Shown here: one piece after another, positions 11,095 to 63,428 of the stretch
How the letters are laid out: each line of letters begins with the position of its first letter
How positions within the stretch are numbered: the first letter of the stretch is position 1
Source: Enterobacter chengduensis
GTDB taxonomy: Bacteria; Pseudomonadota; Gammaproteobacteria; Enterobacterales; Enterobacteriaceae
DNA length: 64,000 nucleotides
NCBI RefSeq assembly: GCF_001984825.2
Contig: NZ_CP043318.1
Coordinates: forward strand, 558,001 to 622,000
Direction: 5' to 3'
Notes under the pieces: generated by a model
Seen by the model: only the letters and a program-made list of their open reading frames with translations
Database searches by the model: none
Told to the model about the DNA's origin: nothing
Program-made: the position numbers and the translations under genes

Positions 11095-11098
11095 GCTT

Positions 11099-39930: not shown

Positions 39931-40127
39931 AACACTTTCCCTGCATCTTTGTGAGTAGAGCGATTGTATGTTCACTAAAACGACTAAAGCCCAACAATCT
40001 TAACAAATATTCAAATAGTAGCGCAGAGGTGAATCGCGCCAGCAGGATACGGATTTACCTGAAATGCGTTTCACAGCCGCTAACATGTGAGTAAAATGTG
40101 CGCCACATTGAAGAAGGATAGTGACGT

Positions 40128-41504
40128 ATGCGCATTCATATATTGGGGATTTGTGGCACTTTCATGGGCGGGCTGGCAATGCTGGCGCGCTCGCTGGGCC
40201 ATGAAGTGACAGGTTCGGACGCCAATGTGTATCCGCCGATGAGCACGCTTCTGGAGAAGCAGGGCATCTCTTTAATTCAGGGCTACGATGCCGGCCAGCT
40301 GGATCCCGAGCCGGACCTGGTGATCATTGGCAACGCCATGACCCGCGGCAATCCGTGCGTTGAGGCGGTACTGGAACGCAATATTCCGTTCATGTCCGGC
40401 CCGCAGTGGCTGCATGACTTCGTCCTGCGCGATCGCTGGGTGGTTGCCGTTGCCGGAACGCACGGCAAAACGACTACCGCGGGCATGGCGACCTGGATCC
40501 TCGAAGCCTGCGGCTACAAGCCGGGCTTTGTGATCGGCGGCGTACCGGGCAACTTCGAGGTTTCTGCGCGTCTGGGCGACAGCCCGTTCTTCGTGATCGA
40601 AGCCGACGAGTATGACTGCGCGTTCTTCGACAAGCGCTCCAAGTTCGTGCACTACTGCCCGCGCACGCTGATCCTCAACAACCTTGAGTTTGACCACGCG
40701 GATATCTTTGACGACCTGAAGGCCATTCAGAAACAGTTCCACCACCTGGTGCGCATTGTTCCGGGCCAGGGCCGCATCATCCTGCCGGAAAATGACATCA
40801 ACCTGAAGCAGACCCTGGCAATGGGCTGCTGGAGCGAGCAGGAGCTGGTGGGCGAGCAGGGCCACTGGCAGGCGAAGAAACTCAACGCCGATGCCTCGGA
40901 GTGGGAAGTGCTGCTCGACGGTGAAAAAGTGGGTGAGGTGAAGTGGGGCCTGGTCGGCGAACACAACATGCACAACGGCCTGATGGCGATTGCGGCAGCG
41001 CGTCACGTCGGCGTACTGCCTGCGGATGCGGCGAATGCGCTGGGCTCGTTTATCAACGCCCGCCGCCGTCTGGAACTGCGCGGTGAAGCCCACGGCGTGA
41101 CGGTGTATGACGATTTCGCGCACCACCCAACGGCGATTCTGGCGACGCTTGCCGCGTTACGCGGCAAAGTCGGCGGCACGGCCCGCATTCTGGCGGTGCT
41201 GGAACCGCGCTCGAACACCATGAAAATGGGCATCTGCAAAGACGATCTGGCGCCGTCGTTAGGACGCGCCGATGAGGTCTTCCTGCTGCAGCCGCAGCAT
41301 ATCCCGTGGCAGGTGGCGGAAGTGGCCGATGCCTGCATTCAGCCTGCGCACTGGAGTGCGGATGTGGATGCGCTCGCGGACATGGTGGTGAAAGCCGCTC
41401 AGCCCGGTGACCACATTCTGGTGATGAGCAACGGCGGGTTTGGTGGGATCCATCAGAAGCTGCTGGACGGCCTGGCGAAGAAAGCGGAAGCGGTAGCAGA
41501 GTAA
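40128..41504 (+). CDS. mpl: UDP-MurNAc:L-Ala-gamma-D-Glu-meso-DAP ligase Mpl
   Basis: Mpl recycles murein tripeptide by joining it to UDP-MurNAc in the cytoplasm. The 458-residue Mur-ligase family protein has an N-terminal UDP-binding loop (HILGICGTFMGGLAMLA), the ATP loop AGTHGKTTTAGM, the central EADEYDCAFFDKRSKFVHY and C-terminal DDFAHHPTAI. The length matches E. coli. It diverges from fbp and ends 1 base before a palindromic repeat. Confidence 0.96.
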   Translation: MRIHILGICGTFMGGLAMLARSLGHEVTGSDANVYPPMSTLLEKQGISLIQGYDAGQLDPEPDLVIIGNAMTRGNPCVEAVLERNIPFMSGPQWLHDFVLRDRWVVAVAGTHGKTTTAGMATWILEACGYKPGFVIGGVPGNFEVSARLGDSPFFVIEADEYDCAFFDKRSKFVHYCPRTLILNNLEFDHADIFDDLKAIQKQFHHLVRIVPGQGRIILPENDINLKQTLAMGCWSEQELVGEQGHWQAKKLNADASEWEVLLDGEKVGEVKWGLVGEHNMHNGLMAIAAARHVGVLPADAANALGSFINARRRLELRGEAHGVTVYDDFAHHPTAILATLAALRGKVGGTARILAVLEPRSNTMKMGICKDDLAPSLGRADEVFLLQPQHIPWQVAEVADACIQPAHWSADVDALADMVVKAAQPGDHILVMSNGGFGGIHQKLLDGLAKKAEAVAE

Positions 41505-41505
41505 A

Positions 41506-41587
41506 CCCCTCACCCCAGCCCTCTCCCCAAAGGAGAGAGGGTGTTCAATTCCCCTCTCCCCTTTGGGGAGAGGGTCAGGGTGAGGGG
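41506..41587. repeat. CCCTCACCC/GGGTGAGGG palindromic repeat, copy 3
   Basis: The compact copy runs from CCCCTCACCCCAGCCCTCTCC to GGGGAGAGGGTCAGGGTGAGGG, with two inner hairpins about an ATTC centre. It lies between the convergent genes mpl and yjgA, where it can act as a two-way terminator. Confidence 0.87.
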
Positions 41588-41604
41588 AACAGGCGGTTCG
41601 AATA

Positions 41605-42156
41605 TTACTCGTCGTTCTCAGACAGCTCGCGCAGATACTGGAAAATCAGGCGCGCAGACTTCGGCGGCTTATTCCCTTCTTTCTCTTTCTTCGCGTTGCG
41701 GATCAAAGAACGCAGCTGCTGGCGGTCGGCATCCGGCCACAGGTTCAGCACTTCCGGTACGGCATCATCACCCTGCTCAATCAGGCGATCGCGGATCTGC
41801 TCAAGCTTATGGAAAAAGGCAACCTGCTGGTTATGGCGGTTTTTCAGCTTGTCCAGCGCCTGGCGGATCGGATCGACGTCGCGCTGACGCAGCATTTTCC
41901 CGATAAGCTGAAGCTGGCGACGACGGCCTTCTTTTTTGATTTTCTGTGCCAGTTCAATGGCATCACGCAGATCCTGGTCGAGCGGGATCTTGTCCAGCGC
42001 GTTTTTACCCAGTTCTACCATTTCTGCGCCAAGCTGTTTTAACTCTTCGGCGTCACGTTTAATTTCACTTTTACTGACCCAGATGATCTCATCATCTTCG
42101 TCTTCGATGTTATCACCGGGAACGTCGTCGAGCCAGTCTTCGGGCTGCTTAGTCAT
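41605..42156 (-). CDS. yjgA: Ribosome assembly factor YjgA (DarP)
   Basis: YjgA/DarP associates with late 50S precursors and helps the peptidyl-transferase centre mature. The 183-residue protein has an acidic N-terminus ([22 protein letters not shown]) and a helical DUF615 domain rich in Lys, Arg and Gln ([19 protein letters not shown]). The length matches E. coli. It diverges from pmbA and converges on mpl. Confidence 0.95.
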
Positions 42157-42251
42157 GTCAGGCTCCTTAAAAAAAGAGGCTAATGTTACCAGTTAAGACG
42201 CGCACTGAAAAACGGTTCTCTGTTAGACTTCAGTTAACTCTCTCTTACAGT

Positions 42252-43604
42252 ATGGCATTTGCGATGAAAGTAACCTCACAAGTTGAAGCGCAGCGTAAGA
42301 TTCTGGAAGAAGCCGTCTCCACCGCGCTGATGCTTGCTTCAGAAAAATCAGATGGCGCCGAAGTGGCGGTCAGTAAAACCACCGGCATCAGCGTGAGCAC
42401 CCGCTATGGTGAAGTGGAGAATGTGGAATTCAACAGCGACGGCGCGCTGGGGATCACGGTCTATCACCAGAATCGCAAAGGCAGCGCGTCATCCACCGAT
42501 CTCAGCCCGGACGCCATTGCCCGTACGGTGCAGGCGGCGCTGGATATCGCCCGTTACACCTCGCCGGATCCTTACGCCGGCGTGGCGGATAAAGACCTGC
42601 TGGCCTTTGACGCGCCGGACCTCGATCTTTTCCACCCGGCGGAGGTGACCCCGGACGAAGCCATCGAGCTGGCCGCACGCGCCGAGCAGGCTTCCCTGCA
42701 GGCCGATAAGCGCATCACCAATACCGAAGGCGGCAGCTTCAACAGCCATTACGGCATCAAGGTATTCGGCAACAGCCACGGCATGCTGCAGGGCTACTGC
42801 TCCACCCGTCATTCGCTTTCCAGCTGCGTCATCGCCGAAGAAAACGGCGACATGGAGCGCGACTACGCCTACACCATTGGCCGCGCGCTGGGCGACTTGC
42901 AGTCTCCGGAGTGGGTGGGTAAAGAGTGCGCCGAACGCACGCTGTCTCGCCTGTCGCCGCGCAAGCTCTCCACCATGAAGGCCCCGGTGATTTTTGCCAA
43001 CGAAGTGGCAACCGGCCTGTTTGGCCATCTGGTGGGCGCTATCGCAGGCGGGTCCGTTTACCGTAAATCGACCTTCCTGCTCGACTCGCTGGGCAAGCAG
43101 ATCCTGCCGGAATGGCTGACCATCGAAGAGCATCCGCACCTGCTGAAAGGGCTGGCCTCCACGCCGTTCGACAGCGAAGGCGTGCGCACCGAGCGTCGCG
43201 ATATCGTCAAAGATGGCGTGCTGACCCAGTGGCTGCTGACCAACTACTCCGCGCGCAAGCTGGGGCTGAAAAGCACCGGCCACGCGGGCGGCATCCACAA
43301 CTGGCGCATTGCCGGGCAGGGCCTCAACTTTGAGCAAATGCTGAAAGAGATGGGCACCGGTCTGGTGGTGACCGAGCTGATGGGCCAGGGCGTAAGCGGC
43401 ATCACCGGCGACTACTCGCGCGGCGCGGCGGGCTTCTGGGTGGAAAACGGCGAAATTCAGTATCCGGTGAGCGAAATCACGATTGCCGGCAACCTGAAGG
43501 ACATGTGGCGCAACATCGTTACGGTCGGTAACGATATTGAAACACGTAGCAATATACAGTGTGGTTCTGTGTTACTGCCGGAAATGAAAATCGCCGGTCA
43601 GTAA
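42252..43604 (+). CDS. pmbA: Metalloprotease subunit PmbA (TldE)
   Basis: PmbA/TldE forms a heterodimeric protease with TldD that removes leader peptides from modified peptides such as microcin B17 and degrades CcdA. The start at 42252 gives 450 residues ([21 protein letters not shown]...), the E. coli length; an in-frame codon at 42183 lies in the yjgA promoter region. The family motif [15 protein letters not shown] and the C-terminal [20 protein letters not shown] are present. This subunit lacks the TldD zinc motif, as expected. Confidence 0.95.
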
Positions 43605-43645
43605 TGCCCGTAATGGCGTGTTAATAATAAAAAAGGAAGTGAGCA

Positions 43646-44032
43646 ATGCGTAAACACCTGTTAGCGATCGTCGCAGCTTCAACGCTGGTTCTTGGCTCTT
43701 CTGCGTTTGCTGCCGATCTTGAAGAAGACATGGGCATCCTCGGGCAAAACCTGAAGGTGGTGCAAAAGACGGACAATGCGGCGGAAATGAAAGACGCCCT
43801 GACCAAAATGCGTGAAGCCGCGCTGGACGCCCAAAAAGCGACGCCACCGAAGCTGGAAAGCAAAGCGGCAGACAGTGCAGAGATGAAGGACTACCGTCAC
43901 GGCTTTGACGTGCTGGTCGGCCAGATCGACGGCGCGCTGAAGCTGGCAAACGAAGGTAAAGTGAAAGAAGCTCAGGCGGCGGCCGAGCAGTTTGTGACCA
44001 CGCGCAACACGTACCACAAGAAATACCGCTAA
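43646..44032 (+). CDS. cybC: Soluble cytochrome b562, periplasmic
   Basis: CybC is a four-helix-bundle haem protein of unknown electron-transfer role. The 128-residue precursor has a signal peptide ([22 protein letters not shown]) and the mature sequence [10 protein letters not shown]... The haem ligands are the Met at mature position 7 and the His in NTYHKKYR near the C-terminus. Both are kept, so the gene looks intact; E. coli K-12 has a defective copy in some annotations. A strong terminator follows. Confidence 0.94.
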
Positions 44033-44059
44033 CCGATCGCGCATCGGACAGACAAGCAG

Positions 44060-44084
44060 CGGGGGCCAGCGGCCCCCGTTTTTT
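44060..44084 (+). terminator. Rho-independent terminator of cybC
   Basis: CGGGGGCC (44060-44067) and GGCCCCCG (44071-44078) with an AGC loop are followed by six T. It isolates cybC from the downstream operon. Confidence 0.94.
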
Positions 44085-44178
44085 ATGCGCGGTAATAAGT
44101 AAACCCTATCGCCATCACATTTTTGCCTCACCACCCCCGAACGTTTTCGTTTCCTTTCCCCGCATTTGCCCGCCGGAA

Positions 44179-44198
44179 TACGTGATATTCATCACGTA
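44179..44198. promoter_or_regulatory. CRP/FNR-type dyad TACGTGATATTCATCACGTA
   Basis: The arms TACGTGAT and ATCACGTA are perfect complements around ATTC. The GTGA-N6-TCAC core is the CRP consensus; FNR would need TTGAT, so CRP is the better reading. It lies about 170 bases before the first gene. Confidence 0.65.
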
Positions 44199-44231
44199 AA
44201 TACAGTGGTTTATCCAGATTCACCGTATTTA

Positions 44232-44247
44232 TGTGGCACAGATCACT
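44232..44247. promoter_or_regulatory. Second CRP-like site TGTGGCACAGATCACT
   Basis: It matches TGTGA-N6-TCACA at 8 of 10 positions and lies 53 bases downstream of the first dyad, centre to centre about 51, close to five helical turns. It is weaker than the first site. Confidence 0.45.
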
Positions 44248-44260
44248 GCTGCGGCTCGCC

Positions 44261-44280
44261 TTTCCACTTCGAAGTGGAAA
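44261..44280. promoter_or_regulatory. Perfect 20-bp palindrome, candidate operator of the PRD regulator
   Basis: TTTCCACTTCGAAGTGGAAA is fully self-complementary over 20 bases and lies 86 bases before the first start codon. No T-run follows, so it is not a terminator. The operon encodes its own PRD/EIIB/EIIA activator, and such activators bind inverted repeats upstream of their promoters. The assignment is inference. Confidence 0.6.
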
Positions 44281-44366
44281 ACAACTCGCTACAAACAATG
44301 CCCCCCCAACGTTAGTTTTATTCCAGAGCCATTAACGGGGTAAGACCAGTGATTAACGGAGCGGTA

Positions 44367-44687
44367 ATGAACGACGTTGGGGAACAGGCGGAGCAAACAG
44401 AACAGCTCGCAAACACCATGCTGCAGCAGGTCTATGCCCTGCTGGCCCGGAACAACATCATCCCCAACGCGGTACAGGAGCAGATGCTCACCTCCCACGT
44501 CCGCGCCATGGCGCACCGGTCCGTGACCGGCGAGCCGCTGCCGGAGGTCGAAGCGGAGCTGTTCGACGAAATTTCACCCGATTCAATGCGGCTCGCCCGT
44601 GAAGTGGTCGCGCAGTTTGGCAACCTTCCTGATGAAGAGGCCTGGCTGCTCTCCGTTCACTTCGAAGTCGCGAAAGACAACCTTTAA
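44367..44687 (+). CDS. Stand-alone PRD-domain protein
   Basis: The 106-residue protein consists of little more than one PTS regulation domain. Two histidine motifs are visible: SHVRAMAHRS (about residues 44-53) and LLSVHFEVAKDNL at the C-terminus. PRDs are normally phosphorylated by HPr or EIIB inside larger regulators. The start at ATG 44367 is preferred because GGAG lies 5 bases upstream; a GTG at 44349 would add 6 residues. It is the first gene of the operon, 10 bases before the next. Its role is unknown; it may modulate the regulator at 51111. Confidence 0.75.
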   Translation: MNDVGEQAEQTEQLANTMLQQVYALLARNNIIPNAVQEQMLTSHVRAMAHRSVTGEPLPEVEAELFDEISPDSMRLAREVVAQFGNLPDEEAWLLSVHFEVAKDNL

Positions 44688-44697
44688 GGAGCAACAC

Positions 44698-45060
44698 ATG
44701 GAACAGATTACAGTCGTGATTGGCGATCGCCTGGGTAAAGGTCAGAAAGTGGCGGCCGGTGTGGAAAAAGCCGGTGGACGCGCGGTGGTTGTGCCGGGCA
44801 TGGCGGCGGATATGAAGCTCGGCGACGTCATGAAGGCGGAAAACGCCACCTTCGGCATCTCCTTCTGCGGCAGCGGCGGCGCGGGTGCTATTACCGCGCA
44901 AACCAAATACGGCTACAAGGCCAAATACGGCATGCGTTCCGTGGACGAGGGCGTCACCGCCATCAACGAAGGCTGCAACGTGCTGGGCTTTGGCTTTATG
45001 GATAAAGAAGAGCTGGGCGAGCGTCTGGTGCAGGCGTGGCAGAAGAAATACGGCGCATAA
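44698..45060 (+). CDS. Small glycine-rich SFCGS-motif cytoplasmic protein
   Basis: The 120-residue soluble protein has a Rossmann-like beginning (ITVVIGDRLGKGQKVAAGVEKAGG) and a conserved-looking SFCGSGGAGAITAQTKYGY segment with a single cysteine at residue 57. A family named after this motif is found in similar operons. The size and the lone cysteine in a glycine-rich loop recall PTS EIIB domains, but no homology is claimed. AAGGAG precedes the start, and DUF4312 follows after 2 bases. Its function is unknown. Confidence 0.75.
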   Translation: MEQITVVIGDRLGKGQKVAAGVEKAGGRAVVVPGMAADMKLGDVMKAENATFGISFCGSGGAGAITAQTKYGYKAKYGMRSVDEGVTAINEGCNVLGFGFMDKEELGERLVQAWQKKYGA

Positions 45061-45062
45061 GC

Positions 45063-45362
45063 ATGAAAGAACAGTTCACAACCACGGTGAGGGTAAAGGG
45101 GAAGGGCGACGCCAAAGCGCGCGCCTTTGCCGACGCGCTCAACCACGTTCAGGCCGCGGTGATGAAAGCCTCACCGCATATCTTACTGCGTATTGAGCCA
45201 CAGGATGTGCAGGTCGTTCAGGCGCAAGAAGCGGTGCGTAAAGAAGCGTTTCTGTTCTTCTTTCTGCGCCGGGAAAGACGCACCTACAGCGTGGAGCTGG
45301 ATGTGACCGTCAACGTGACCGCCATCAATCTTGACCAGGTGGATTTCGTCACGCAACGCTGA
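45063..45362 (+). CDS. DUF4312-type small cytoplasmic protein
   Basis: The 99-residue protein has a beta-alpha-beta-looking pattern: EQFTTTVRVKGKGDAKARAFADALNHVQ, then an aromatic-basic patch FLFFFLRRERRTYS and the strand VELDVTVNVTAINLDQ. No catalytic residues stand out and there is no membrane helix. It sits between the SFCGS protein and two membrane proteins, so it may be a peripheral subunit of that membrane complex. The DUF number is from memory. Confidence 0.7.
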   Translation: MKEQFTTTVRVKGKGDAKARAFADALNHVQAAVMKASPHILLRIEPQDVQVVQAQEAVRKEAFLFFFLRRERRTYSVELDVTVNVTAINLDQVDFVTQR

Positions 45363-45384
45363 TTATTCATAAAAGGGCAGACTG

Positions 45385-46161
45385 ATGTTCTTAATTATAT
45401 TAATAAAATCGCTCATCATCGGCGGCCTGGTAGGCGTCGGTGTCGGGGCCGGGGCTGCACGCATGTTTCATGCGCCTACCACGCAGGGTATGGGCGCGTT
45501 TCGTACTTTGGGGGAACTGAACTCCTGCGAAGGGGATCCGGCGTCCCACTTCTCCTTTGGGTTAGGTTTCTTCTTTAACGCCTGGGCCTCTTCCGTGGCC
45601 GCAGGGGCTTTCACACAGGACGTTGACCACCGCATCATCCCAAACTGGGGCGCGGCGGCACTGATGATCAAAAACCGTAACGTCGGCGAAACGCTGCACG
45701 ACCCTAAGCGCATGGCGATTGCCTGCGGCGTTATCGGCATGATCGTCGTGACCTTCCTTAACCTGACCGCCTCCTCCGTTCCCGCTGCGCTTCAGGTCAC
45801 CGCCGTGAAGGTGCTGGTACCGGCGGCGAACCTGCTGGTGAACACCGTGATGCCGGTGATCTTCTGGCTGGCGGCCATCGACGCGGGTAAAAAATCGGGC
45901 TTCTGGGCCACCGTGTTTGGCGGCGCGGCGCAGCTGATCATGGGTAACGCCGTACCGGGCCTGGTGCTGGGGATCCTGATCGGTAAAGGCGTGGAAGAGA
46001 GCGGCTGGAACCACGTCACCAGGGTGATGATGGCGGCGATCGTTCTGCTCTTCGTGCTGAGCGGCTTCTTCCGCGGCTTCGACATGAAGATGATCGAATC
46101 CTTCCACCTGACCGTGCCGAACTGGCTCGACATGATCCACAACTCGCTCAGCGGTAAATAA
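45385..46161 (+). CDS. DUF4311-type multi-pass membrane protein
   Basis: The 258-residue protein has about six hydrophobic segments, beginning with LIILIKSLIIGGLVGVGVGAG and including IACGVIGMIVVTFLNLTASS, two segments in 135-195 and one near 220. A polar loop with ELNSCEGDPASHFSFGLGFFFNAWASSVA lies early. No ABC, MFS or PTS EIIC motif is seen. With the next gene it forms a tandem of membrane proteins, 13 bases apart, which suggests a two-component channel or permease. Confidence 0.75.
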   Translation: MFLIILIKSLIIGGLVGVGVGAGAARMFHAPTTQGMGAFRTLGELNSCEGDPASHFSFGLGFFFNAWASSVAAGAFTQDVDHRIIPNWGAAALMIKNRNVGETLHDPKRMAIACGVIGMIVVTFLNLTASSVPAALQVTAVKVLVPAANLLVNTVMPVIFWLAAIDAGKKSGFWATVFGGAAQLIMGNAVPGLVLGILIGKGVEESGWNHVTRVMMAAIVLLFVLSGFFRGFDMKMIESFHLTVPNWLDMIHNSLSGK

Positions 46162-46174
46162 CAGGAGCCTCGAC

Positions 46175-46816
46175 ATGGAACAGAATAAAGGTTTTTGGTA
46201 TGCCGACTGGTCGTTCCCGATCTTCGTTGGCCTGCTCTCCTCCGGCGTGTTCGCCGGGACGCACATGTACTACCTCTACGGCATCGGCGCGTTTAACGAA
46301 GTGGCCTTCGTGGCGATGCTGAAAGCGGGGATGGATACCGGCGTTTACGGCGCGGTGGCGGCGTTCGGCGCAAGCTTCCTGTTTGCGCGCATCATTGAAG
46401 GGTCGCTGGTGGGTATTCTCGATATCGGCGGGGCGATCCAGACCGGCGTGGGCCTCGGCGTTCCGGCGCTGCTGCTGGGCGCGGGGATCATGTTCCCGGT
46501 GACCAACTTCATTGCCGCGCTGATTACCGGCCTGGTGATTGGCCTGGCGATTGGCTACGTCATCATCCTGGCGCGTAAGTTCACCATCAACCAGAGCAAC
46601 TCCACCTACGGTGCCGACGTGATGATGGGCGCGGGTAACGCCTCAGGCCGCTTCCTCGGACCGTTGATTATCCTCAGCGCCATGACCGCCTCCATTCCGA
46701 TTGGCGTCGGCTCTCTGCTGGGGGCGCTGGTGTTCTACATCTGGCAGAAGCCGATCACCGGTGGCGCCATTCTTGGTGCAATGCTGCTGGGCTGGCTGTT
46801 CCCGGTCGCTCTTTAA
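46175..46816 (+). CDS. DUF4310-type multi-pass membrane protein
   Basis: The 213-residue protein has about six glycine-rich hydrophobic segments (FPIFVGLLSSGVFAGTHMYY, VGLGVPALLLGAGIMFPVT, AALITGLVIGLAIGYVIILA, GGAILGAMLLGWLFPVAL) and a polar loop TINQSNSTYGADVMMGAGNASG. Such loops often line substrate paths, but this family has no established function that I know of. It follows the DUF4311 gene by 13 bases and precedes the amidohydrolase gene. Confidence 0.75.
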   Translation: MEQNKGFWYADWSFPIFVGLLSSGVFAGTHMYYLYGIGAFNEVAFVAMLKAGMDTGVYGAVAAFGASFLFARIIEGSLVGILDIGGAIQTGVGLGVPALLLGAGIMFPVTNFIAALITGLVIGLAIGYVIILARKFTINQSNSTYGADVMMGAGNASGRFLGPLIILSAMTASIPIGVGSLLGALVFYIWQKPITGGAILGAMLLGWLFPVAL

Positions 46817-46858
46817 CACCTGCGGGCGCTGCGGCGCCCGCCTTACCAGGAGATCCTC

Positions 46859-47992
46859 ATGTTTGATTTACTCCTGCGCCGCGCGCGCCTCGCCGACGAT
46901 ACCCTGACCGATATCGCCATTCAGGACGGGAAGATCGCCGCGACGGGCGACATTATCGCCCCCGCGCGTAAAACGGTTGAGCTGAACGGCGACGTGTTCG
47001 TCAGCGCAGGCTGGATTGACTCCCACGTTCACTGCTACCCGAACTCGCCGATTTACCACGACGAGCCGGACAGCGTGGGCATTGCCACCGGCGTTACCAC
47101 CGTGGTGGACGCGGGCAGTACCGGCGCCGACGACGTGGACGATTTCTATGACATCACCCGCAGGGCCTCTACCGAGGTGTTTGCCCTGCTGAATATTTCC
47201 CGCGTGGGGCTGATTGCCCAAAACGAGCTGGCCAATATGGCGAATATTGACGCCGACGCGGTGAAGCAGGCGGTGACGCGCTACCCGGATTTTATCGTGG
47301 GCCTGAAGGCGCGCATGAGCAGCAGCGTGGTCGGTGAAAACGGCATTACGCCGCTGGAGCGCGCGAAAGCCATTCAGAAAGATAACGGCGACCTGCCGCT
47401 AATGGTGCACATCGGCAACAACCCGCCAAACCTCGACGAAATCGCTGAACTCTTGAGTTCGGGCGACATCATTACCCACTGCTACAACGGCAAACCCAAC
47501 CGCATTCTGACGCCCTCCGGCGAGCTGCGCGCCTCCATCACCTCCGCCCTGAAGCGCGGCGTGCGCCTGGACGTCGGCCACGGTACGGCGAGCTTCAGCT
47601 TTGAGGTGGCGAAACGCGCCATCGCGATGGGCATTCTGCCGCACACCATCAGCTCGGATATCTACTGCCGCAACCGCATCAACGGCCCGGTAGGCAGCCT
47701 GGCGAGCGTAATGTCGAAGTTTCTCGCCATCGGCATGTCCTTGCCGCAGGTGATTGACTGCGTCACCGCCAACGCCGCGGACGGCCTGCGCCTGGCGCGC
47801 AAGGGGCGCATCGCGCCGGGCCTCGACGCCGACCTGACGCTGTTCACGATTAAACGCCAGCCGACGGTGCTGACGGATGCCGAAAACGACAGCCTGCAGG
47901 CTGAACACATTCTGGTGCCGCTTGCCGCGATCCGCGCGGGCAAGGGCTACATGACCGAACAAGGGAGCACGGAACATGCCTTCGATTTATGA
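46859..47992 (+). CDS. Amidohydrolase/deacetylase family metallohydrolase
   Basis: The 377-residue TIM-barrel hydrolase has the metal site of the amidohydrolase superfamily: His56-x-His58 (DSHVHCYP), a probable carboxylated Lys150 (GLKARMS), His184 (MVHIGNNPP), His207 (ITHCYNG) and Asp267 (SSDIY). It resembles the deacetylase/dihydroorotase-like branch that cleaves N-acyl or ester bonds. In this operon it could remove an acyl group from an amino-sugar acid before the ammonia-lyase acts. Its 3' end overlaps the next gene by 17 bases. Confidence 0.85.
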   Translation: MFDLLLRRARLADDTLTDIAIQDGKIAATGDIIAPARKTVELNGDVFVSAGWIDSHVHCYPNSPIYHDEPDSVGIATGVTTVVDAGSTGADDVDDFYDITRRASTEVFALLNISRVGLIAQNELANMANIDADAVKQAVTRYPDFIVGLKARMSSSVVGENGITPLERAKAIQKDNGDLPLMVHIGNNPPNLDEIAELLSSGDIITHCYNGKPNRILTPSGELRASITSALKRGVRLDVGHGTASFSFEVAKRAIAMGILPHTISSDIYCRNRINGPVGSLASVMSKFLAIGMSLPQVIDCVTANAADGLRLARKGRIAPGLDADLTLFTIKRQPTVLTDAENDSLQAEHILVPLAAIRAGKGYMTEQGSTEHAFDL

Positions 47993-49094
47993 GAAGTACC
48001 ATTTAAAGCAGGTTATCAACACCTCGGGCCGCATGACGGCGCTGGGCGTCTCCACCCCGCGCCCGGAAGTGGTGCAGGCGGCGATGGACGGCATGAATCA
48101 CTATTTCGAGATGAAGGATCTGGTCAACAAAACCGGGGAATACATCGCGAAGCTTCTTGATGTGGAGGGGGCGACGGTGGTCTCCTGCGCGTCGGCGGGC
48201 ATTGCCCAGTCCGTGGCGGCGGTGCTGGTCAAAGACAGCGACTGGCTGCTGGAAAACCTGCACGTGACCCCGATTGAGAACAACGAGATCGTCATGCCGA
48301 AAGGCCACAACGTTAACTTTGGCGCGCCGGTGGGCACCATGGTGGCGCTGGGCGGCGGCAGGCTGGTGGAAGCGGGCTACGCCAACGAATGCTCCGCCGA
48401 TCAGCTGGCGGCGGCGATCACCCCGCGCACCGCGGCGATCATGTACATCAAATCACACCACTGCGTGCAGAAAAGCATGCTCAGCGTCGAGCAGGCGGCG
48501 GTCGTGGCGCGCAAGCACGATCTCCCGCTGATCGTTGATGCCGCAGCGGAAGAAGATCTGCACGTGTACTACCGCTCCGGCGCGGACCTGGTGATCTACA
48601 GCGGTGCGAAGGCGATCGAGGGGCCGACCAGCGGGCTGGTGATCGGCAAAACCCAGTACGTTGAGTGGGTGAAGCGCCAGACGGCGGGCATTGGCCGCGC
48701 GATGAAGGTGGGCAAAGAGGGGATCCTCGGCCTGACCTGCGCCATCGAACACTACCTGACGGCGACCAAAGAGAGCGGCGCCGAGATGGTGGCGAAGATG
48801 ACGCCGTTTATCGACGCGCTTAACACCCTGAACGGCGTCACCGCGCGCGTGGTCTGGGACAGCGCCGGGCGCGATATTGCCCGCACAGAGATTAAGTTTG
48901 ACGAAGCGACCACCGGCGTGGGCACGGGCGACCTGGTGGCGAAGCTGAAGCAGGGCGAATACGCCATCTATTTCCGCGGCTACAAGGCCAACGAAGGGAT
49001 TATCGAAGCGGACGTGCGCAGCGTAAATGCTGACCAGCTGAACATCGTGTACCGCCGCATTAGCGAAGTGTTAGGACAGGAGAAAAACGCATGA
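47976..49094 (+). CDS. DgaE-like PLP-dependent ammonia-lyase
   Basis: The 372-residue protein belongs to the SelA/aminotransferase fold and resembles Salmonella DgaE, which converts D-glucosaminate-6-phosphate to 2-keto-3-deoxy-6-phosphogluconate and ammonia. The N-terminal VINTSGRMTALGVSTPRPEV, the VDAAAEEDLH segment and the probable PLP lysine 212 in YSGAKAIEGPTSG are visible. It overlaps both neighbours, the amidohydrolase by 17 bases and the aldolase by ATGA. The phosphorylated substrate it should need has no obvious source in this operon. Confidence 0.85.
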   Translation: MPSIYEKYHLKQVINTSGRMTALGVSTPRPEVVQAAMDGMNHYFEMKDLVNKTGEYIAKLLDVEGATVVSCASAGIAQSVAAVLVKDSDWLLENLHVTPIENNEIVMPKGHNVNFGAPVGTMVALGGGRLVEAGYANECSADQLAAAITPRTAAIMYIKSHHCVQKSMLSVEQAAVVARKHDLPLIVDAAAEEDLHVYYRSGADLVIYSGAKAIEGPTSGLVIGKTQYVEWVKRQTAGIGRAMKVGKEGILGLTCAIEHYLTATKESGAEMVAKMTPFIDALNTLNGVTARVVWDSAGRDIARTEIKFDEATTGVGTGDLVAKLKQGEYAIYFRGYKANEGIIEADVRSVNADQLNIVYRRISEVLGQEKNA

Positions 49095-49831
49095 AACTGA
49101 CCCCCAACTTTTACCGTGACCGCGTCTGCCTGAACGTGCTGGCGGGCTCAAAGGCCAACGCCAGCGCCATCTACGAGGCGGCAGAAGGTCACGTGCTGGT
49201 GGGCGTGCTCTCCAAAAATTACCCGGACGTGGCAAGCGCGGTGGCGGATATGCGCGAGTACGCGGCGCTGATTGATAATGCGCTCTCGGTTGGTCTGGGC
49301 GCGGGGGATCCGAACCAGTCCGCGATGGTGAGCGAGATCTCCCGTCAGGTGCAGCCGCAGCACGTGAATCAGGTCTTTACCGGCGTGGCGACCAGCCGCG
49401 CGCTGCTGGGGCAGAATGAGTCCGTGGTGAACGGCCTGGTCTCGCCGACCGGCACCGTCGGCATGGTCAAAATCTCCACCGGCCCGCTGAGCAGCGCGGC
49501 GCCGGACGGCATCGTCCCGGTGGAAACCGCGATTGCCCTGCTGAAGGATTTTGGCGGCAGCTCGATCAAATACTTCCCGATGGGCGGCCTGAAGTGCCGC
49601 GACGAATACCAGGCGGTGGCGGAAGCCTGCGCCCGTCACGGCTTCTGGCTGGAACCGACCGGTGGGATCGATCTGGAAAACTATGAGGAGATCCTGCAGA
49701 TCGCCCTCGACGCGGGCGTGAGCAAAATCATCCCGCATATCTACAGCTCGATTATCGACAAAGCCAGCGGCGACACGCGCCCGGAAGATGTGCGCACGCT
49801 GCTGGCGATGACGAAGAAGCTGGTGAAGTAG
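49091..49831 (+). CDS. DgaF-like 2-keto-3-deoxy-6-phosphogluconate aldolase
   Basis: The 246-residue TIM-barrel aldolase resembles DgaF, which splits KDPG into pyruvate and glyceraldehyde-3-phosphate. The segment GGSSIKYFPMGGLK holds the probable Schiff-base lysine, and LEPTGGIDLENYEEI the phosphate-binding loop. Its start overlaps the ammonia-lyase stop (ATGA), so the two act in sequence and are made together. A palindromic repeat follows before the lactonase gene. Confidence 0.87.
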   Translation: MKLTPNFYRDRVCLNVLAGSKANASAIYEAAEGHVLVGVLSKNYPDVASAVADMREYAALIDNALSVGLGAGDPNQSAMVSEISRQVQPQHVNQVFTGVATSRALLGQNESVVNGLVSPTGTVGMVKISTGPLSSAAPDGIVPVETAIALLKDFGGSSIKYFPMGGLKCRDEYQAVAEACARHGFWLEPTGGIDLENYEEILQIALDAGVSKIIPHIYSSIIDKASGDTRPEDVRTLLAMTKKLVK

Positions 49832-49842
49832 CAAAAACAACA

Positions 49843-49924
49843 CCCCTCACCCTAACCCTCTCCCCAAAGGGGAGAGGGGACGATTACTCCCTCGCCCCTT
49901 TGGGGAGAGGGCCGGGGTGAGGGG
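49843..49924. repeat. CCCTCACCC/GGGTGAGGG palindromic repeat, copy 4, inside the operon
   Basis: The copy runs from CCCCTCACCCTAACCCTCTCCCC to GGGGAGAGGGCCGGGGTGAGGGG with ACGATTACTCC at the centre. It lies between the aldolase and lactonase genes and could reduce expression of the last two genes of the operon. Confidence 0.88.
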
Positions 49925-49954
49925 CAAACACCGCACAAACCCAAAGGAGCCACC

Positions 49955-51091
49955 ATGCACACCCGTAACCTGCTTGTCGCTTCACTCTCTTTGCTTGCTA
50001 CCGCCGCCGTCGCGCAAACCCAGTACGCCTGGGTCGGCACCTACAACCCCAACGGCGAAGGGCTGTACCGCTTTTCCGTCGACCCGCAAACCGGCGCGCT
50101 CGGCAACAAAACGCTGGTGAGCACGCTGCCGAACGCCGCGCAGCTTACCCTCGCGAAAGATGGCAAAACGCTCTATCTGGCAAGCGAAGTAGAGCAGGGC
50201 GTGGTGCAGGCGCTGCGCGTCGGCGATAACGGAGAGCTGAACGAGCTGAATCAGGTGGCGTCCGGGGGCGCGGGGCCGGTCTATCTTTCGCTGACGCCGA
50301 ACGGCCAGCACCTGCTGGTGGCGAACTACGTCAGCGGATCGATTGCCGTTTTGCCGATCAACGCAGACGGCAGCCTGGGGGAGGCCACGGACACCCAACA
50401 GGATCGGGGCGAACCGGGCGCGGCGAAGCCGGAAGCGGCAGCGGAGGGCAGCTTTGCCATCAGCGATCACAACGGCCCCCACGCGCACATGATCGCCGCC
50501 GATCCGAGCGGGAAGTACGTGTTTTCGACCGATCTTGGGCTGGATCGCCTCTATCAGTACCGTTTTGACGATCGAACGGGGAAGCTGACCCCCAACGATC
50601 CGCCGTTTGTCAGCGCCTCCTCAAAAGGGGCCGGGCCGCGCCACTTTGTCTTTACGCCGAAGGGCGATGCCCTGTGGCTGATTAACGAAGAGGCGTCTAC
50701 GCTCACCTACTATGCGATGGAGGCAAACGGCACGCTGAAAGAGGGCAAAACGCTCTCCGCCCTGCCGGAAGGATACAAAGGCACCAGCTTTGCTGCCGGG
50801 CTCGCAATAAGCGCCGACGGCAAGCAGCTGTATGTGGCTAACCGTTTGCATAACAGCATCGGGCACTTTACCGTAACGGCAGAGGGCACGCTGACGCATC
50901 AGGACGACGTGTGGACGCGCGGCGACTACCCGCGCACCCTGACGCTCGATAAACAGGGACGCTGGCTGTACGTCATGAACCAGCGCAGCGACAACATTAC
51001 CCGTTTCCGCGTGGCGCAGGACGGGAAGTTGCGCTTCGAGCCAGACTATACCCCGGTCGGCAGCCCATCCCAGATGGTCATTTCACCCTAA
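49955..51091 (+). CDS. Exported lactonase-family beta-propeller protein
   Basis: The 378-residue protein has a signal peptide (LLVASLSLLATAAVA, residues about 6-20) and a seven-bladed propeller of the 6-phosphogluconolactonase/muconate cycloisomerase type (YAWVGTYNPNGEGLYRF, HNGPHAHMIAADPSGKYVF, GAGPRHFVFTPKG, DYPRTLTLD). Cytoplasmic homologues open sugar lactones. The export signal places this one in the periplasm, where it could open an aldonolactone before uptake. CCCAAAGGAGCCACC precedes the ATG. Confidence 0.86.
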   Translation: MHTRNLLVASLSLLATAAVAQTQYAWVGTYNPNGEGLYRFSVDPQTGALGNKTLVSTLPNAAQLTLAKDGKTLYLASEVEQGVVQALRVGDNGELNELNQVASGGAGPVYLSLTPNGQHLLVANYVSGSIAVLPINADGSLGEATDTQQDRGEPGAAKPEAAAEGSFAISDHNGPHAHMIAADPSGKYVFSTDLGLDRLYQYRFDDRTGKLTPNDPPFVSASSKGAGPRHFVFTPKGDALWLINEEASTLTYYAMEANGTLKEGKTLSALPEGYKGTSFAAGLAISADGKQLYVANRLHNSIGHFTVTAEGTLTHQDDVWTRGDYPRTLTLDKQGRWLYVMNQRSDNITRFRVAQDGKLRFEPDYTPVGSPSQMVISP

Positions 51092-51110
51092 GCCGTAAGA
51101 GGACAACGAC

Positions 51111-53021
51111 GTGCGATTTCCGAACCAACGTTTAGCGCAACTTTTCGACCTGCTGCAAAACGAGACGCTGCCGCAGGACGAGCTGGCGCAGCGGCTGTCG
51201 GTCTCCACGCGAACCGTCCGTGCCGATATCACCGCCCTGAACGCGCTGCTGGCAAGCCACGGGGCGCAGTTTGTTCTGAGCCGTGGCAATGGCTATCAGC
51301 TCAAAATTGACGACGCCGAGCGCTATCAGCAGCTGCAGGCCTCCCACCCGCGCGCGCTGCGGATTCCCCGTACGGGCGCGGAGCGCGTGCATTATCTGGT
51401 GGTGCGTTTTCTGACCTCGGCGTTTTCGCTTAAGCTCGAGGACCTGGCGGACGAGTGGTTCGTCAGCCGCGCCACGCTGCAAAGCGACATGGCGGAGGTG
51501 CGCGAGTGGTTTCATCGCTACAACCTGACGCTGGAAACCCGTCCACGGCACGGCATGAAGCTGTTTGGCAGCGAGATGTCGACCCGCGCCTGCCTGACCG
51601 ACCTGCTCTGGGAGCTGGCGCAGCAGGACAGCCTGAACCCGCTGGTGACGGACGTGGCGCTCAACGCGGGCGTGGCGGAGCAGATGGTGCCCGTGCTGCA
51701 CGACGCCCTGACGCGTCACCATATTCGCCTGACCGACGAAGGCGAGCTGTTCCTGCGCCTCTACTGCGCGGTGTCGGTGCGCCGCATCAGCGAAGGTTAC
51801 CCGCTGCCGGAATTCCACGCCGAAGACGTGGAAGAGAACGTGCGCGAGGCGGCGAAGGATATCGCGGTGACCATCCAGCGACTGGCGGGCAAGGCGCTTT
51901 CTCCGTCGGAGGAGAGCTGGCTGTGCGTGCACATTGCGGCGCGGCAGATTCAGGAGATTGCCCCGAGCGCGATTAACGCGGATGACGACGAAGCGCTGGT
52001 TAACTACATCCTGCGCTATATCAACACCCACTATAACTACAACCTGCTCAGCGACGCGCAGCTGCACGCGGACCTGCTCACGCACATCAAAACCATGATC
52101 ACCCGCGTGCGGTATCAAATCATGATCCCCAATCCGCTGCTGGATAACATCAAGCAGCACTACCCGATGGCGTGGGACATGACCCTCGCGGCGGTGTCGA
52201 GCTGGGGCAAATACACGCCGTATGCGATCAGCGAAAACGAGATTGGCTTTCTGGTGCTGCATATTGGCGTCGGGCTGGAGCGTCACTACAACATTGGCTA
52301 CCAGCGCCAGCCGCGCGTGCTGCTGGTCTGCGACGCCGGTAATGCCATGGTCCGCATGATTGAGGCGGTACTCCAGCGTAAATACCCGCAGATTGAGGTC
52401 ACGCGCACGCTCACCCTGCGCGAGTACGAGCAGGTGGAATCGCTGAGCGAGGACTTTGTCATCGCCACCGCCCGCGTCAGCGAAAAGTCGAAACCGGTGG
52501 TGACGATCGCCCCGTTCCCGACCGACTATCAGCTGGAGCAGATCGGCAAGCTGGTGCTGGTGGACCGCACCCGCCCGTGGATGCTGGATAAATACTTCGA
52601 CGCGGCCCATTTCCGCATCATCAACACGCCCGTTGACCAGCAGACGCTGTTCCGGGAACTGTGCGCGCAACTTGAAGGCGAGGGGTTTGTCGGCGCGGAG
52701 TTTCTGGACTCGGTCATTGAGCGTGAAGCGATCGTCAGCACCATGCTCGGCGACGGCATCGCGCTGCCGCACTCCCTCGGCCTGCTGGCGCAGAAAACGG
52801 TGGTCTACACCGTGCTGGCCCCGCACGGCGTGCAGTGGGGCGACGAAACCGCGCACGTCATCTTCCTGCTCGCCATCAGCAAGAGCGAATACGAAGAGGC
52901 GATGGCGATTTACGATATCTTCGTCACCTTCCTGCGCGAGCGTGCCATGGCGCGGCTCTGTAGCTGCGAGGATTTTGCCGGGTTTAAGGCGGTGGCGATG
53001 GAGAGTTTGAGTCGGTTTTGA
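51111..53021 (+). CDS. PRD-containing PTS-responsive transcriptional regulator (BglG/MtlR type)
   Basis: The 636-residue regulator starts at GTG 51111 (AGAGGA upstream). Domains in order are an HTH_11 DNA-binding domain (about 1-60; LPQDELAQRLSVSTRTVRADI), a second HTH region (about 85-150), two PRDs (about 180-400), an EIIB-like domain with Cys407 (LLVCDAGNAM) and an EIIA-like domain with His554 (GDGIALPHSLG). This is the layout of MtlR/LicR-type activators, not RNA-binding antiterminators. Phosphorylation by PTS proteins should set its activity. It is the last gene of the operon. Confidence 0.88.
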   Translation: MRFPNQRLAQLFDLLQNETLPQDELAQRLSVSTRTVRADITALNALLASHGAQFVLSRGNGYQLKIDDAERYQQLQASHPRALRIPRTGAERVHYLVVRFLTSAFSLKLEDLADEWFVSRATLQSDMAEVREWFHRYNLTLETRPRHGMKLFGSEMSTRACLTDLLWELAQQDSLNPLVTDVALNAGVAEQMVPVLHDALTRHHIRLTDEGELFLRLYCAVSVRRISEGYPLPEFHAEDVEENVREAAKDIAVTIQRLAGKALSPSEESWLCVHIAARQIQEIAPSAINADDDEALVNYILRYINTHYNYNLLSDAQLHADLLTHIKTMITRVRYQIMIPNPLLDNIKQHYPMAWDMTLAAVSSWGKYTPYAISENEIGFLVLHIGVGLERHYNIGYQRQPRVLLVCDAGNAMVRMIEAVLQRKYPQIEVTRTLTLREYEQVESLSEDFVIATARVSEKSKPVVTIAPFPTDYQLEQIGKLVLVDRTRPWMLDKYFDAAHFRIINTPVDQQTLFRELCAQLEGEGFVGAEFLDSVIEREAIVSTMLGDGIALPHSLGLLAQKTVVYTVLAPHGVQWGDETAHVIFLLAISKSEYEEAMAIYDIFVTFLRERAMARLCSCEDFAGFKAVAMESLSRF

Positions 53022-53051
53022 GAAAAAGGCGGATAAATAATATCCGCTTTT
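53022..53051. terminator. Bidirectional terminator between the regulator gene and nrdG
   Basis: GCGGATA (53029-53035) and TATCCGC (53041-53047) form a stem with an AATAA loop, flanked by an A-run before and TTTTC after. It can stop transcription from both sides of this convergent junction. Confidence 0.85.
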
Positions 53052-53053
53052 CA

Positions 53054-53518
53054 TTAACGCAAATGATGCACAACCTGGTTACTGCTGCCGCGCCAGATGA
53101 GCGCCGGGTCTTTTAAATCCTGCACGAACTTGCCGTCGACCAGCACGTTAATCAACTCCACCACTTCCATCTGAGCAGCATTCAGTTCATCCAGCCTGTA
53201 TCCCGTCCAGACCCAGATATCCTTTCCCGAGCACTCGCGGCGAATGCGTTTTACCAGATTCAGGATCTCCGGCACGTTTTGCGGGTGCAGCGGATCGCCG
53301 CCGGAGAGCGAAATCCCCTGGCGTTTGATGCGCGTATCGTTGAGATCGTTAATGATCCGGTCTGCCATGTCAGCGGTAAACGGCATGCCGGAATTCAGGC
53401 GCCAGGTGCTTTTGTTGTAGCAGCCGGGGCATTCGTGGACGCAGCCTGAGACAAACAGGGTACAGCGGGTGCCGGGGCCGTTGACGATGTCGACGGGGTA
53501 GTACTGGTGATAGTTCAT
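53054..53518 (-). CDS. nrdG: Anaerobic ribonucleotide reductase activating enzyme NrdG
   Basis: NrdG is a radical-SAM enzyme that makes the glycyl radical on NrdD. The 154-residue protein equals E. coli NrdG in length and has the cluster motif CVHECPGCYNKST (CxxxCxxC) and the SAM-binding SLSGGDPLHPQN. It lies downstream of nrdD in the same direction, separated by a REP pair. Confidence 0.96.
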   Translation of the reverse strand: MNYHQYYPVDIVNGPGTRCTLFVSGCVHECPGCYNKSTWRLNSGMPFTADMADRIINDLNDTRIKRQGISLSGGDPLHPQNVPEILNLVKRIRRECSGKDIWVWTGYRLDELNAAQMEVVELINVLVDGKFVQDLKDPALIWRGSSNQVVHHLR

Positions 53519-53531
53519 TGCGAATAACCAC

Positions 53532-53606
53532 GCCGGGTGGCGCTGCGCTTACCCGGCCTACAAAAGTGAGCGGTTCGTAGGCCCGGTAAGCGCAGCGCCA
53601 CCGGGC
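53532..53606. repeat. REP pair (BIME) between nrdD and nrdG
   Basis: GCCGGGTGGCGCTGCGCTTA (from 53532) and TAAGCGCAGCGCCACCGGGC (ending 53606) are almost exact inverted units around a CCTACAAAAGTGAGC loop. It lies inside the nrdD-nrdG transcript, where such elements can stabilise upstream mRNA. Confidence 0.9.
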
Positions 53607-53623
53607 ATGAACGTGGCAGCGGA

Positions 53624-55762
<2,139 letters not shown>

Positions 55763-55787
55763 GATCACTCCATTTTTTGAAAACAGG

Positions 55788-55796
55788 TTATCCACA
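55788..55796 (+). promoter_or_regulatory. DnaA box (TTATCCACA) in the nrdD leader
   Basis: This is a perfect match to the strong DnaA 9-mer, 26 bases upstream of the nrdD start. A second perfect copy lies 77 bases away in the same orientation. DnaA-ATP controls nrdAB in E. coli; a similar link for nrdDG would be inference. Confidence 0.6.
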
Positions 55797-55864
55797 GAGG
55801 TGGAGAAGTATTCACCGGGCGTATTCCCCGCCGGGCCAAAGACTTCCCGCGTTCCCAGCGCGTG

Positions 55865-55873
55865 TTATCCACA
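55865..55873 (+). promoter_or_regulatory. Second DnaA box (TTATCCACA) upstream of nrdD
   Basis: This perfect 9-mer lies between the NrdR boxes and the nrdD start, same orientation as the copy at 55788. Two exact 9-mers within 86 bases are unlikely by chance. Confidence 0.6.
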
Positions 55874-55922
55874 ATTCCGGCCAGCGTAAGCGCCGTCTTG
55901 TTGTTGGAATAGTAGACGATAA

Positions 55923-55938
55923 ATACAACATGTTGGGT
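55923..55938 (-). promoter_or_regulatory. NrdR box 1 of nrdDG
   Basis: The core CAACATGTTG (55926-55935) fits the NrdR pattern CWATATATWG with two changes. Its centre is 31 bases from that of box 2, the three-turn spacing typical of paired NrdR boxes. Confidence 0.75.
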
Positions 55939-55953
55939 CGGCGTGCATTTTAA

Positions 55954-55969
55954 GTGCTACATATAGTGA
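55954..55969 (-). promoter_or_regulatory. NrdR box 2 of nrdDG
   Basis: The core CTACATATAG (55957-55966) fits CWATATATWG with one change. Together with box 1 it predicts repression by the nucleotide-sensing repressor NrdR. Confidence 0.78.
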
Positions 55970-55979
55970 TTTGCATCAA
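55966..55979 (-). promoter_or_regulatory. FNR-like site upstream of nrdDG
   Basis: GTGAT-TTGC-ATCAA matches the FNR consensus TTGAT-N4-ATCAA at 9 of 10 positions. It overlaps the edge of NrdR box 2 and fits the known anaerobic induction of nrdDG. Confidence 0.7.
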
Positions 55980-56098
55980 ACATGTTTGCGATTTATTTGA
56001 TGCAGAACAAAGTAAAAAGGCGAGAGTACAAACGGCGGGCGCTACAGCGATTGTAAAGGAGGACGAGAAAAATCTGATTAATTATTCAACAAAAACAG

Positions 56099-56130
56099 TA
56101 AAATAAGCCGGGTGCTGGGCTGCACCCGGC
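56099..56130 (-). terminator. Rho-independent terminator of treB-treC
   Basis: GCCGGGTGC (56107-56115) and GCACCCGGC (56122-56130) form a perfect 9-bp stem with a 6-base loop. On the minus strand TTATTTTAC follows. It lies 7 bases beyond the treC stop. Confidence 0.88.
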
Positions 56131-56137
56131 GGGACGG

Positions 56138-57781: not shown

Positions 57782-57832
57782 AATGCGTTCCTGCAAATGC
57801 GAAGGGGCGCAACTGCGCCCCGAAAGAGAAAG

Positions 57833-59254: not shown

Positions 59255-59329
59255 GAAACCTCATGACAGATGGTGAGAGGGTGTAATGACCTGAGCGCAA
59301 GCCTACTCCTTCAGCGTGACGGCGAAAAT

Positions 59330-59341
59330 GGGAACGTTCCC
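59330..59341 (-). promoter_or_regulatory. TreR operator of treB-treC
   Basis: GGGAACGTTCCC is a perfect 12-bp palindrome with the central CG of LacI-type operators and matches the known TreR box GGAACGTTCC. It lies 76 bases before treB, in the treR-treB gap. Confidence 0.9.
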
Positions 59342-59380
59342 GAAATCGGGCGAAGATCACAATAATCCGTTGAGCGGGGA

Positions 59381-60328: not shown

Positions 60329-60405
60329 GCTGTATTCCCTGTAACAACGACAAAGTGGTCAATTGAGCCTAATGCTATAGCGCGATTTCGCTATGGGCAA
60401 AGTCT

Positions 60406-60719: not shown

Positions 60720-63428
<2,709 letters not shown>

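Follow-up and report, generated by a model that had tools for sequence, protein, structure and literature searches.

A ten-gene operon of Enterobacter chengduensis joins a conserved membrane protein cassette to DgaE- and DgaF-type enzymes and may import an amino-sugar acid

The closest described system for the degradation of an amino-sugar acid is encoded by the dgaABCDEF operon of Salmonella, which comprises a mannose-family phosphotransferase system (PTS) with EIIA, EIIB, EIIC and EIID, a DgaE-family lyase and a DgaF aldolase, and which has a PRD-bearing, PTS-linked regulator, as far as the available parts of the two reports describe it (PMC4987338, PMC9529869). The characterised substrate of DgaE is D-glucosaminate-6-phosphate, and the excerpts on the lyase DGL place Arg226 near the substrate carboxylate and one residue of the pair His162-His163 near the phosphate ester oxygen (PMC9529869). 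A second relative is the EF_0829-EF_0839 region of Enterococcus. In the accessible portions of two reports, EF0839 and EF2975 are treated as divergent eda-like enzymes possibly involved in amino-sugar metabolism (PMC7701990), and the ef_0839/ef_2975 promoter is among the promoters active in urine (PMC2912369). Here, an operon of ten open reading frames (ORFs) is described that contains the same cassette of an SFCGS protein, DUF4312, DUF4311 and DUF4310, and the same enzyme families, as the enterococcal region. It lies within a stretch of 64,000 nucleotides of Enterobacter chengduensis (contig NZ_CP043318.1, positions 558,001 to 622,000), called the window, to which all coordinates refer. The cassette is already known to curators, as the hypothetical equivalogs EF_0829 to EF_0839, which are functionally unnamed, and no paper on its function was found in open-licence full text with the DUF, TIGR, Pfam and EF locus names.

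The operon occupies positions 44367-53021 of the forward (+) strand, on which all of its genes lie head to tail, between the cytochrome b562 gene cybC and the opposing nrdG; the upstream neighbour, named by eye and by synteny, is presumably cybC. All ten ORFs were found in the 64-kb window, the starts of the SFCGS and DUF4312 genes being taken from a reading of the sequence, and eight of the ten genes exceeded curated NCBIfam cut-offs, either of families named after EF_0829-EF_0839, the source of these names, or of the DgaE and DgaF families. An earlier note, made from the letters of the DNA, had described a ten-gene operon of these families without a PTS EIIC, EIID or kinase, and both statements were confirmed: the NCBIfam and Pfam tables gave no match to EIIC, EIID or sugar-kinase families among the ten proteins. 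The operon shares the lyase, the aldolase and a PRD-bearing, PTS-linked regulator with Salmonella dga. In contrast to dga, it has none of the mannose-family EII subunits in the same tables (the EIIA of gene 10 is of the PTS_EIIA_2 type), it contains the membrane cassette and an amidohydrolase, and its regulator is of another type than the LevR-like DgaR. Several enterococcal loci such as L013 add a PTS EIIC, MupG and a PfkB kinase, whereas the window operon adds a lactonase.

The operon is best explained by PTS-linked catabolism of an N-acylated amino-sugar acid, which would be imported via DUF4311 and DUF4310, a tentative reading to which we give a chance somewhat short of even. The substrate would be a 2-acylamino aldonic acid, the simplest candidate being N-acetyl-glucosaminate or a stereoisomer. 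The permease in the membrane would be composed of DUF4311 and DUF4310, assisted by the small DUF4312 protein. SFCGS would be a cytoplasmic partner of RpiB/LacAB fold that binds the sugar acid, either free or phosphorylated, and perhaps also acts on it as an isomerase or epimerase via the loop with its invariant cysteine. A link to HPr/EII phosphorylation would be provided by the single-PRD protein and its two invariant histidines. The acyl group would be taken off by the amidohydrolase, the DgaE-like lyase would eliminate ammonia, and the DgaF aldolase would split 2-keto-3-deoxy-6-phosphogluconate (KDPG) into pyruvate and glyceraldehyde-3-phosphate. A palindrome upstream of the operon would be the site at which the PRD/EIIA regulator acts. 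The point of phosphate addition is one that we infer. If the cassette is a transporter, it represents a further answer to the question how bacteria import amino-sugar acids.

The linkage of cassette and enzymes is the first line of evidence. A scan of 84,980 species genomes yielded 501 stretches encoding a relative of DUF4311, and the best 80 of the 501 were analysed; they were drawn with an Enterococcus query and therefore lean towards Firmicutes (53/80). The genome-neighbourhood check proposed in the earlier note had asked whether the four cassette proteins always occur together, and they did so in 77 of the 80 loci (all full-size in 74). The order PRD-SFCGS-DUF4312-DUF4311-DUF4310 was found in 70 loci with full-size ORFs and in 73 with ORFs of any size, and a stand-alone full-size PRD gene was present in 74. 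The amidohydrolase was found in 76 loci (full-size in all 76), DgaE in 75 (full-size in 73) and DgaF in 71 (full-size in 68), and the four cassette genes were accompanied by all three enzymes in 71/80. Four sequences end early (L050 0.7 kb past DUF4311; L021, L024 and L048 2 to 2.8 kb past it). The opposite finding, a cassette that often occurs without DgaE/DgaF-type enzymes, was not made: only three loci, L016, L026 and L029, lacked all three enzymes despite full-length flanks, and these genomes hold the enzymes elsewhere. In L016, the small PRD protein is matched by part of the 736-residue regulator ORF (7030-9237 of that locus), apparently a fusion of the two. In four loci of Bacillus and Listeria (L056, L062, L064 and L087), the amidohydrolase gene precedes that of the PRD protein, and DgaE and DgaF are divergent, with 37-59% identity to those of the window; this version perhaps acts on another substrate.

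In each of the three genomes without linked enzymes, a separate operon comprises a GntR-type gene, a lactose-type EIIC, MupG, the amidohydrolase, DgaE, DgaF and PfkB. The cassette and the enzymes are therefore separable modules, but both are present in the same genome in these three cases. Furthermore, the DgaE family was above its cut-off in all eight genomes searched (for eight of nine chosen loci, L056 being left out). The Firmicutes module seen apart from the SFCGS cassette in L238, L239 and L240 runs GntR-EIIC-small membrane protein-MupG-amidohydrolase-DgaE-DgaF-PfkB, the GntR label being confirmed with Pfam in L238 and given by eye in L239 and L240; its composition suggests a glycoside of an amino-sugar acid as substrate.

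The second line of evidence comes from two cassette genomes, G473 (with cassette locus L009) and G474 (with L016), in which a DgaE-DgaF pair also stands behind mannose-family EIIA, EIIB, EIIC and EIID (L241 and L243, respectively). All four subunits exceeded the Pfam cut-offs in both loci, and neither a cassette nor an amidohydrolase was found within the 18-kb stretches. The PTS-linked enzymes of G473 share 82.4% (DgaE) and 90.2% (DgaF) identity with the copies in the cassette operon of that genome, and this DgaE nests inside an enterococcal cassette clade with a support of 97/92. The placement of the G474 DgaE is uncertain (support 94/49, long branch). Because DgaE and DgaF also follow a complete mannose-type PTS in these two Firmicutes genomes, uptake is, by this indirect argument, a likely role of the cassette. 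In the simplest view, the cassette replaces the mannose PTS as importer, for a form of the substrate that needs deacylation, and the data fit a swap of uptake modules in which the amidohydrolase travels with the cassette.

The amidohydrolase/deacetylase of the EF_0837 family (46859..47992) scored 574.8 bits with TIGR03583 (cut-off 432.15) and, against proteins of solved structure, 718.7 bits with 8wzy, which is filed as a dihydroorotase, and 371.4 bits with 2ics. The DgaE-family pyridoxal phosphate-dependent ammonia lyase (47976..49094) scored 607.5 bits with TIGR01437 (cut-off 385.3) and 301.9 bits with the structure 7lc0; the His162-His163 pair is kept, and a lysine stands in the Arg226 column. 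The DgaF-type KDPG aldolase (49091..49831) scored 408.8 bits with TIGR03581 (cut-off 222.4), 391.6 bits with NF047796 (cut-off 300) and 470.8 bits with the structure 3m0z. The chemistry of DgaE and DgaF is assigned from family knowledge. The next gene encodes a 7-bladed beta-propeller lactonase (49955..51091; PF10282, 324.7 bits), the N-terminus of which looks signal-like by eye; the lactonase was considered as a core part and ruled out, being present in only two of the 80 related loci, and is a local accessory.

The first gene of the operon encodes the single-PRD protein (44367..44687, alternative GTG start at 44349; TIGR03582, 139.8 bits, cut-off 69.35), in which His44 and His98 are invariant in 80 of 80 aligned sequences. 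The next is the SFCGS protein (44698..45060; PF14272; TIGR03577, 226.6 bits, cut-off 141.1), with Cys57 invariant in 84/84. Its AlphaFold2 model reached a predicted local distance difference test value (pLDDT) of 91.7 and a predicted template modelling score (pTM) of 0.87, and the best matches of the model in Foldseek and VIA were RpiB/LacAB proteins. With high confidence, SFCGS is thus predicted to adopt the ribose-5-phosphate isomerase B fold in preference to that of a PTS EIIB; the profile comparison with EIIB covered a single EIIB sequence that passed the filter and was given no weight. The likeness to the RpiB/LacAB isomerases, which have about 150 residues compared to 120 in SFCGS, is one of predicted fold: the match to PF02502 (16.1 bits, E 0.011) was under the Pfam cut-off of 24.7 bits, and the hhalign score with RpiB (22.5) was equalled by 4 of 20 block shuffles. 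DUF4312 (45063..45362; TIGR03578, 142.8 bits, cut-off 89.65) has neither histidine nor cysteine among the positions conserved to at least 85% in 83 sequences. The earlier note had suggested that the two membrane proteins and the two small soluble proteins may be a new transporter, possibly one that phosphorylates its substrate, and had proposed a comparison with the PTS EIIB, EIIC and EIID folds. An uptake system tied to amino-sugar-acid catabolism became more likely, and an EIIB-like subunit became less likely.

The membrane pair consists of the integral membrane proteins DUF4311 (45385..46161; TIGR03580, 514.5 bits, cut-off 301.1) and DUF4310 (46175..46816; TIGR03579, 394.6 bits, cut-off 215.45). 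Their alignments have mean column identities of 74% (41 sequences) and 68% (40 sequences), respectively. EIIC and EIID of the mannose family are likewise two membrane subunits, but no sequence similarity to DUF4311/DUF4310 was detected. By eye the pair is alike to the mannose-PTS subunits as well as to YhfT of Escherichia coli, but neither likeness stood out from the controls: the EIIC-man and EIID-man scores were equalled by 5 to 18 of 20 block shuffles, and the YhfT scores of DUF4311, DUF4310 and a concatenated profile were below the block-shuffle median. A membrane model was built with AlphaFold2 on P0050, a database protein that joins most of DUF4311 and DUF4310 and is probably an artefact of assembly or gene calling, with an alignment of 56 mostly unpaired sequences. 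Its Foldseek matches were discarded (best E 0.26, TM scores of at most 0.2 among the matches listed). The database entry of an enterobacterial DUF4311-DUF4310 sequence (P0011) names the fungus Astraeus odoratus as its source, which is probably due to contamination.

Several observations weigh against an importer for an N-acylated amino-sugar acid. That the membrane pair imports the substrate, and thus the transport function itself, is deduced from gene context; no solved structure and no EIIC or EIID profile was matched by DUF4311 or DUF4310, and the P0050 model had to be discarded (pLDDT 67.6, pTM 0.42). The argument of module exchange stems from two genomes, and the one with the near-identical enzymes, the Enterococcus genome G473, has in L009 a DUF4310 ORF of 116 residues (10810-11157 of that locus) compared to the usual ~215, so that this cassette may be damaged. 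Operon runs were split at gaps of 300 bases, and accessory genes counted in them are therefore lower bounds; a lactose-type PTS EIIC was found in 14 of the 80 runs and in trans in three more genomes, and with such an EIIC in cis or in trans there is no obvious need for another permease. In L068 and L076 the cassette is accompanied by DgaE without DgaF, though at least 4.8 kb of sequence follow. The amidohydrolase would have an amino-sugar acid as its natural substrate by context, and the DgaE of the window remained below the cut-off of the DgaE equivalog model, with 381.6 bits. Finally, ordinary RpiB catalysis by SFCGS is doubtful, because the protein is shorter than RpiB and, in a profile alignment in which the cysteines are aligned, the column of RpiB His99 holds no histidine in SFCGS.

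The source of the phosphate was surveyed in 19 hand-picked proteobacterial cassette genomes. A KdgK orthologue (45-88% identity) was present in 15 of them, with 88% in G001, the nearest genome of the collection. Weak or no PfkB matches were obtained for the remaining four, i.e., those of Iodobacter metagenome-assembled genome L043, Chromobacterium L046, L065 and Xenorhabdus L076. A PfkB kinase is part of the operon run in 10/80 loci, all of them from Firmicutes. Based on both counts, the phosphate may be supplied in many hosts by a kinase acting on ketodeoxygluconate, and a few hosts may point to another source. HPr was found in all 31 cassette genomes searched, yet also in 7 of 14 control genomes, and thus is not discriminating.

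A similar arrangement was found in the yhf operon of E. coli (yhfSTU-php-yhfWXYZ, L001 3936-11345), where a PRD protein, an RpiB-like cysteine protein and a membrane protein are likewise encoded together. SFCGS aligned with YhfU (DUF2620) over 118 columns, the whole protein, with an hhalign E of 1.8e-6, and the score of 42.7 was reached by none of 20 block shuffles (maximum 33.5). The small PRD protein matched the YhfY profile with an E of 1.4e-9; PRD is, however, a common domain. His48 of the YhfY PRD is invariant in 13/13 sequences, a set that omits YhfY-profile matches from five cassette loci, and Cys52 of YhfU in 32/32. YhfU itself matched LacAB_rpiB weakly (E 0.065). The genes for YhfU and YhfT are on the same strand in 31 of 31 loci and at most 124 bases apart in 30, and a YhfY-like PRD protein was visible in all eleven loci from the phylum around G480 (L089-L099). 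YhfT was found in 17 of 149 genomes of the family of G001 and in 12 of 398 of the phylum around G480, 11 of them over the cut-off, but in 0/185 of a class-wide sample around G001 and in 0/14 cassette genomes, out of 15 selected. The YhfT-profile match in L100 was below the cut-off and uracil-permease-like by eye, and was excluded from these counts.

Both operons thus have a small PRD protein, a protein with a matching C-x-x-G loop (YhfU and SFCGS) and adjoining polytopic membrane proteins, but the yhf operon encodes a single membrane protein of 434 residues instead of two, and its enzymes are different. Judged from the profile comparisons, the shared unit is the PRD protein plus the cysteine protein, adjacent to a membrane protein of the polytopic type, the membrane parts showing no detectable relation. 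Among the papers listed for yhfS, yhfT or yhfU, none was a functional study of the yhf operon according to its title, and the RpiB-fold link offers a handle on this operon. It is conceivable, but quite improbable in our view, that SFCGS/DUF4310-4312 and YhfTUY are two branches of an undescribed type of PTS-coupled sugar-acid transport, in which a PRD protein and an RpiB-fold cysteine protein would replace EIIA and EIIB and the substrate would be modified on entry.

The invariant residues could also be read as a phosphorylation chain of a new PTS-like group translocator, in which phosphate would pass from HPr to His44/His98 of the PRD protein and further to Cys57 of SFCGS, and DUF4311/DUF4310 would couple the import of the sugar acid to its phosphorylation. 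This is the idea of the earlier note, with a path for the phosphate added. The His/His/Cys set, its parallel in YhfY His48 and YhfU Cys52, the absence of a kinase in cis, the four of 19 proteobacterial cassette genomes that miss a close KdgK orthologue, and the phosphorylating mannose PTS next to close copies of DgaE and DgaF are all in line with it. The RpiB/LacAB rather than EIIB fold predicted for SFCGS argues the other way, and we regard a group translocator as unlikely. The lactose-type EIIC and MupG (13/80 operon runs) gave rise to a different view, i.e., that another permease, e.g., of the lactose type, imports the substrate and that the cassette acts as a sensor or exporter linked to the membrane, which would report the sugar-acid phosphate to the PRD network. 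It would agree with L026 and L029, where the cassette stands apart from the enzymes with just the PRD regulator and the PRD protein, which are fused in L016. However, the lactose-type EIIC is absent from 66 of the 80 runs, some genes of which are unlabelled, and two polytopic proteins would be a large apparatus for sensing, so that we consider this view improbable.

The degraded compound might also belong to another class, such as the lactams, the cyclic imides or the 2,3-diamino sugar acids, and the likeness to DgaE and DgaF would then reflect only shared beta-elimination and aldolase chemistry. This would explain why the DgaE equivalog cut-off is not reached and why a lysine is found in the column of Arg226, the residue near the substrate carboxylate in the available part of the DGL report (PMC9529869). 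In addition, the amidohydrolase superfamily also handles cyclic amides, the allantoinase and dihydroorotase models matching far below their cut-offs. On the other hand, the DgaF equivalog cut-off is exceeded, the His162-His163 pair is retained, and the DgaE next to the mannose PTS, which is similarly low on the equivalog model (359.1 bits for L241), nests among the Firmicutes cassette DgaEs. Another compound class is distinctly unlikely, and an N-acylated amino-sugar acid remains the preferred substrate. A clean gain-of-function growth test would be possible in E. coli, because the operon is absent at the K-12 site and blastn gave no match.

The last gene of the operon (gene 10, 51111..53021) encodes the regulator, with the Pfam domains HTH_11, Mga, PRD and PTS_EIIA_2; it matches some multi-domain EII models of NCBIfam solely via its EIIA part. 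Close relatives (at least 213 bits) were found in the proteobacterial loci and distant ones (17-161 bits) in the Firmicutes loci. A perfect 20-bp palindrome, TTTCCACTTCGAAGTGGAAA (44261..44280), is located ~90 bases ahead of the PRD gene and is a candidate operator. It is the sole match in the 64 kb at up to 3 mismatches, and none was found in 100 shuffles. When up to 3 mismatches are allowed in the 18-base core, 31 of 34 proteobacterial loci carry it ahead of their PRD gene, compared to none of the 49 Firmicutes loci. The three misses are from Chromobacterium or labelled Xenophilus; two have a looser TTTCCGC...CGGAAA and L046 has none. The operon's own PRD/EIIA regulator may bind this palindrome. 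A further, less exact copy occurs in several Providencia loci, about 355 bases upstream of the first. At 44181-44196, upstream of the palindrome, there is what we take, by eye, to be a CRP-like site (CGTGA-TATTCA-TCACG).

In E. coli K-12, cybC (a pseudogene) directly adjoins nrdG with no gene between them, and the segment 44698-47992 gave no blastn match (11-base words) in 5,426 E. coli genomes; the slot of the operon is therefore empty in E. coli. Rfam gave no match within 40000-57000 of the window. Between cybC and the operon, a terminator-like hairpin is found at 44058-44080, such hairpins numbering 12 in the sequence compared to 9.8 expected from shuffles. Further along the window (56138-63428), nrdD is followed by treC, treB and treR, and a magnesium-translocating P-type ATPase is encoded at 60714-63428.

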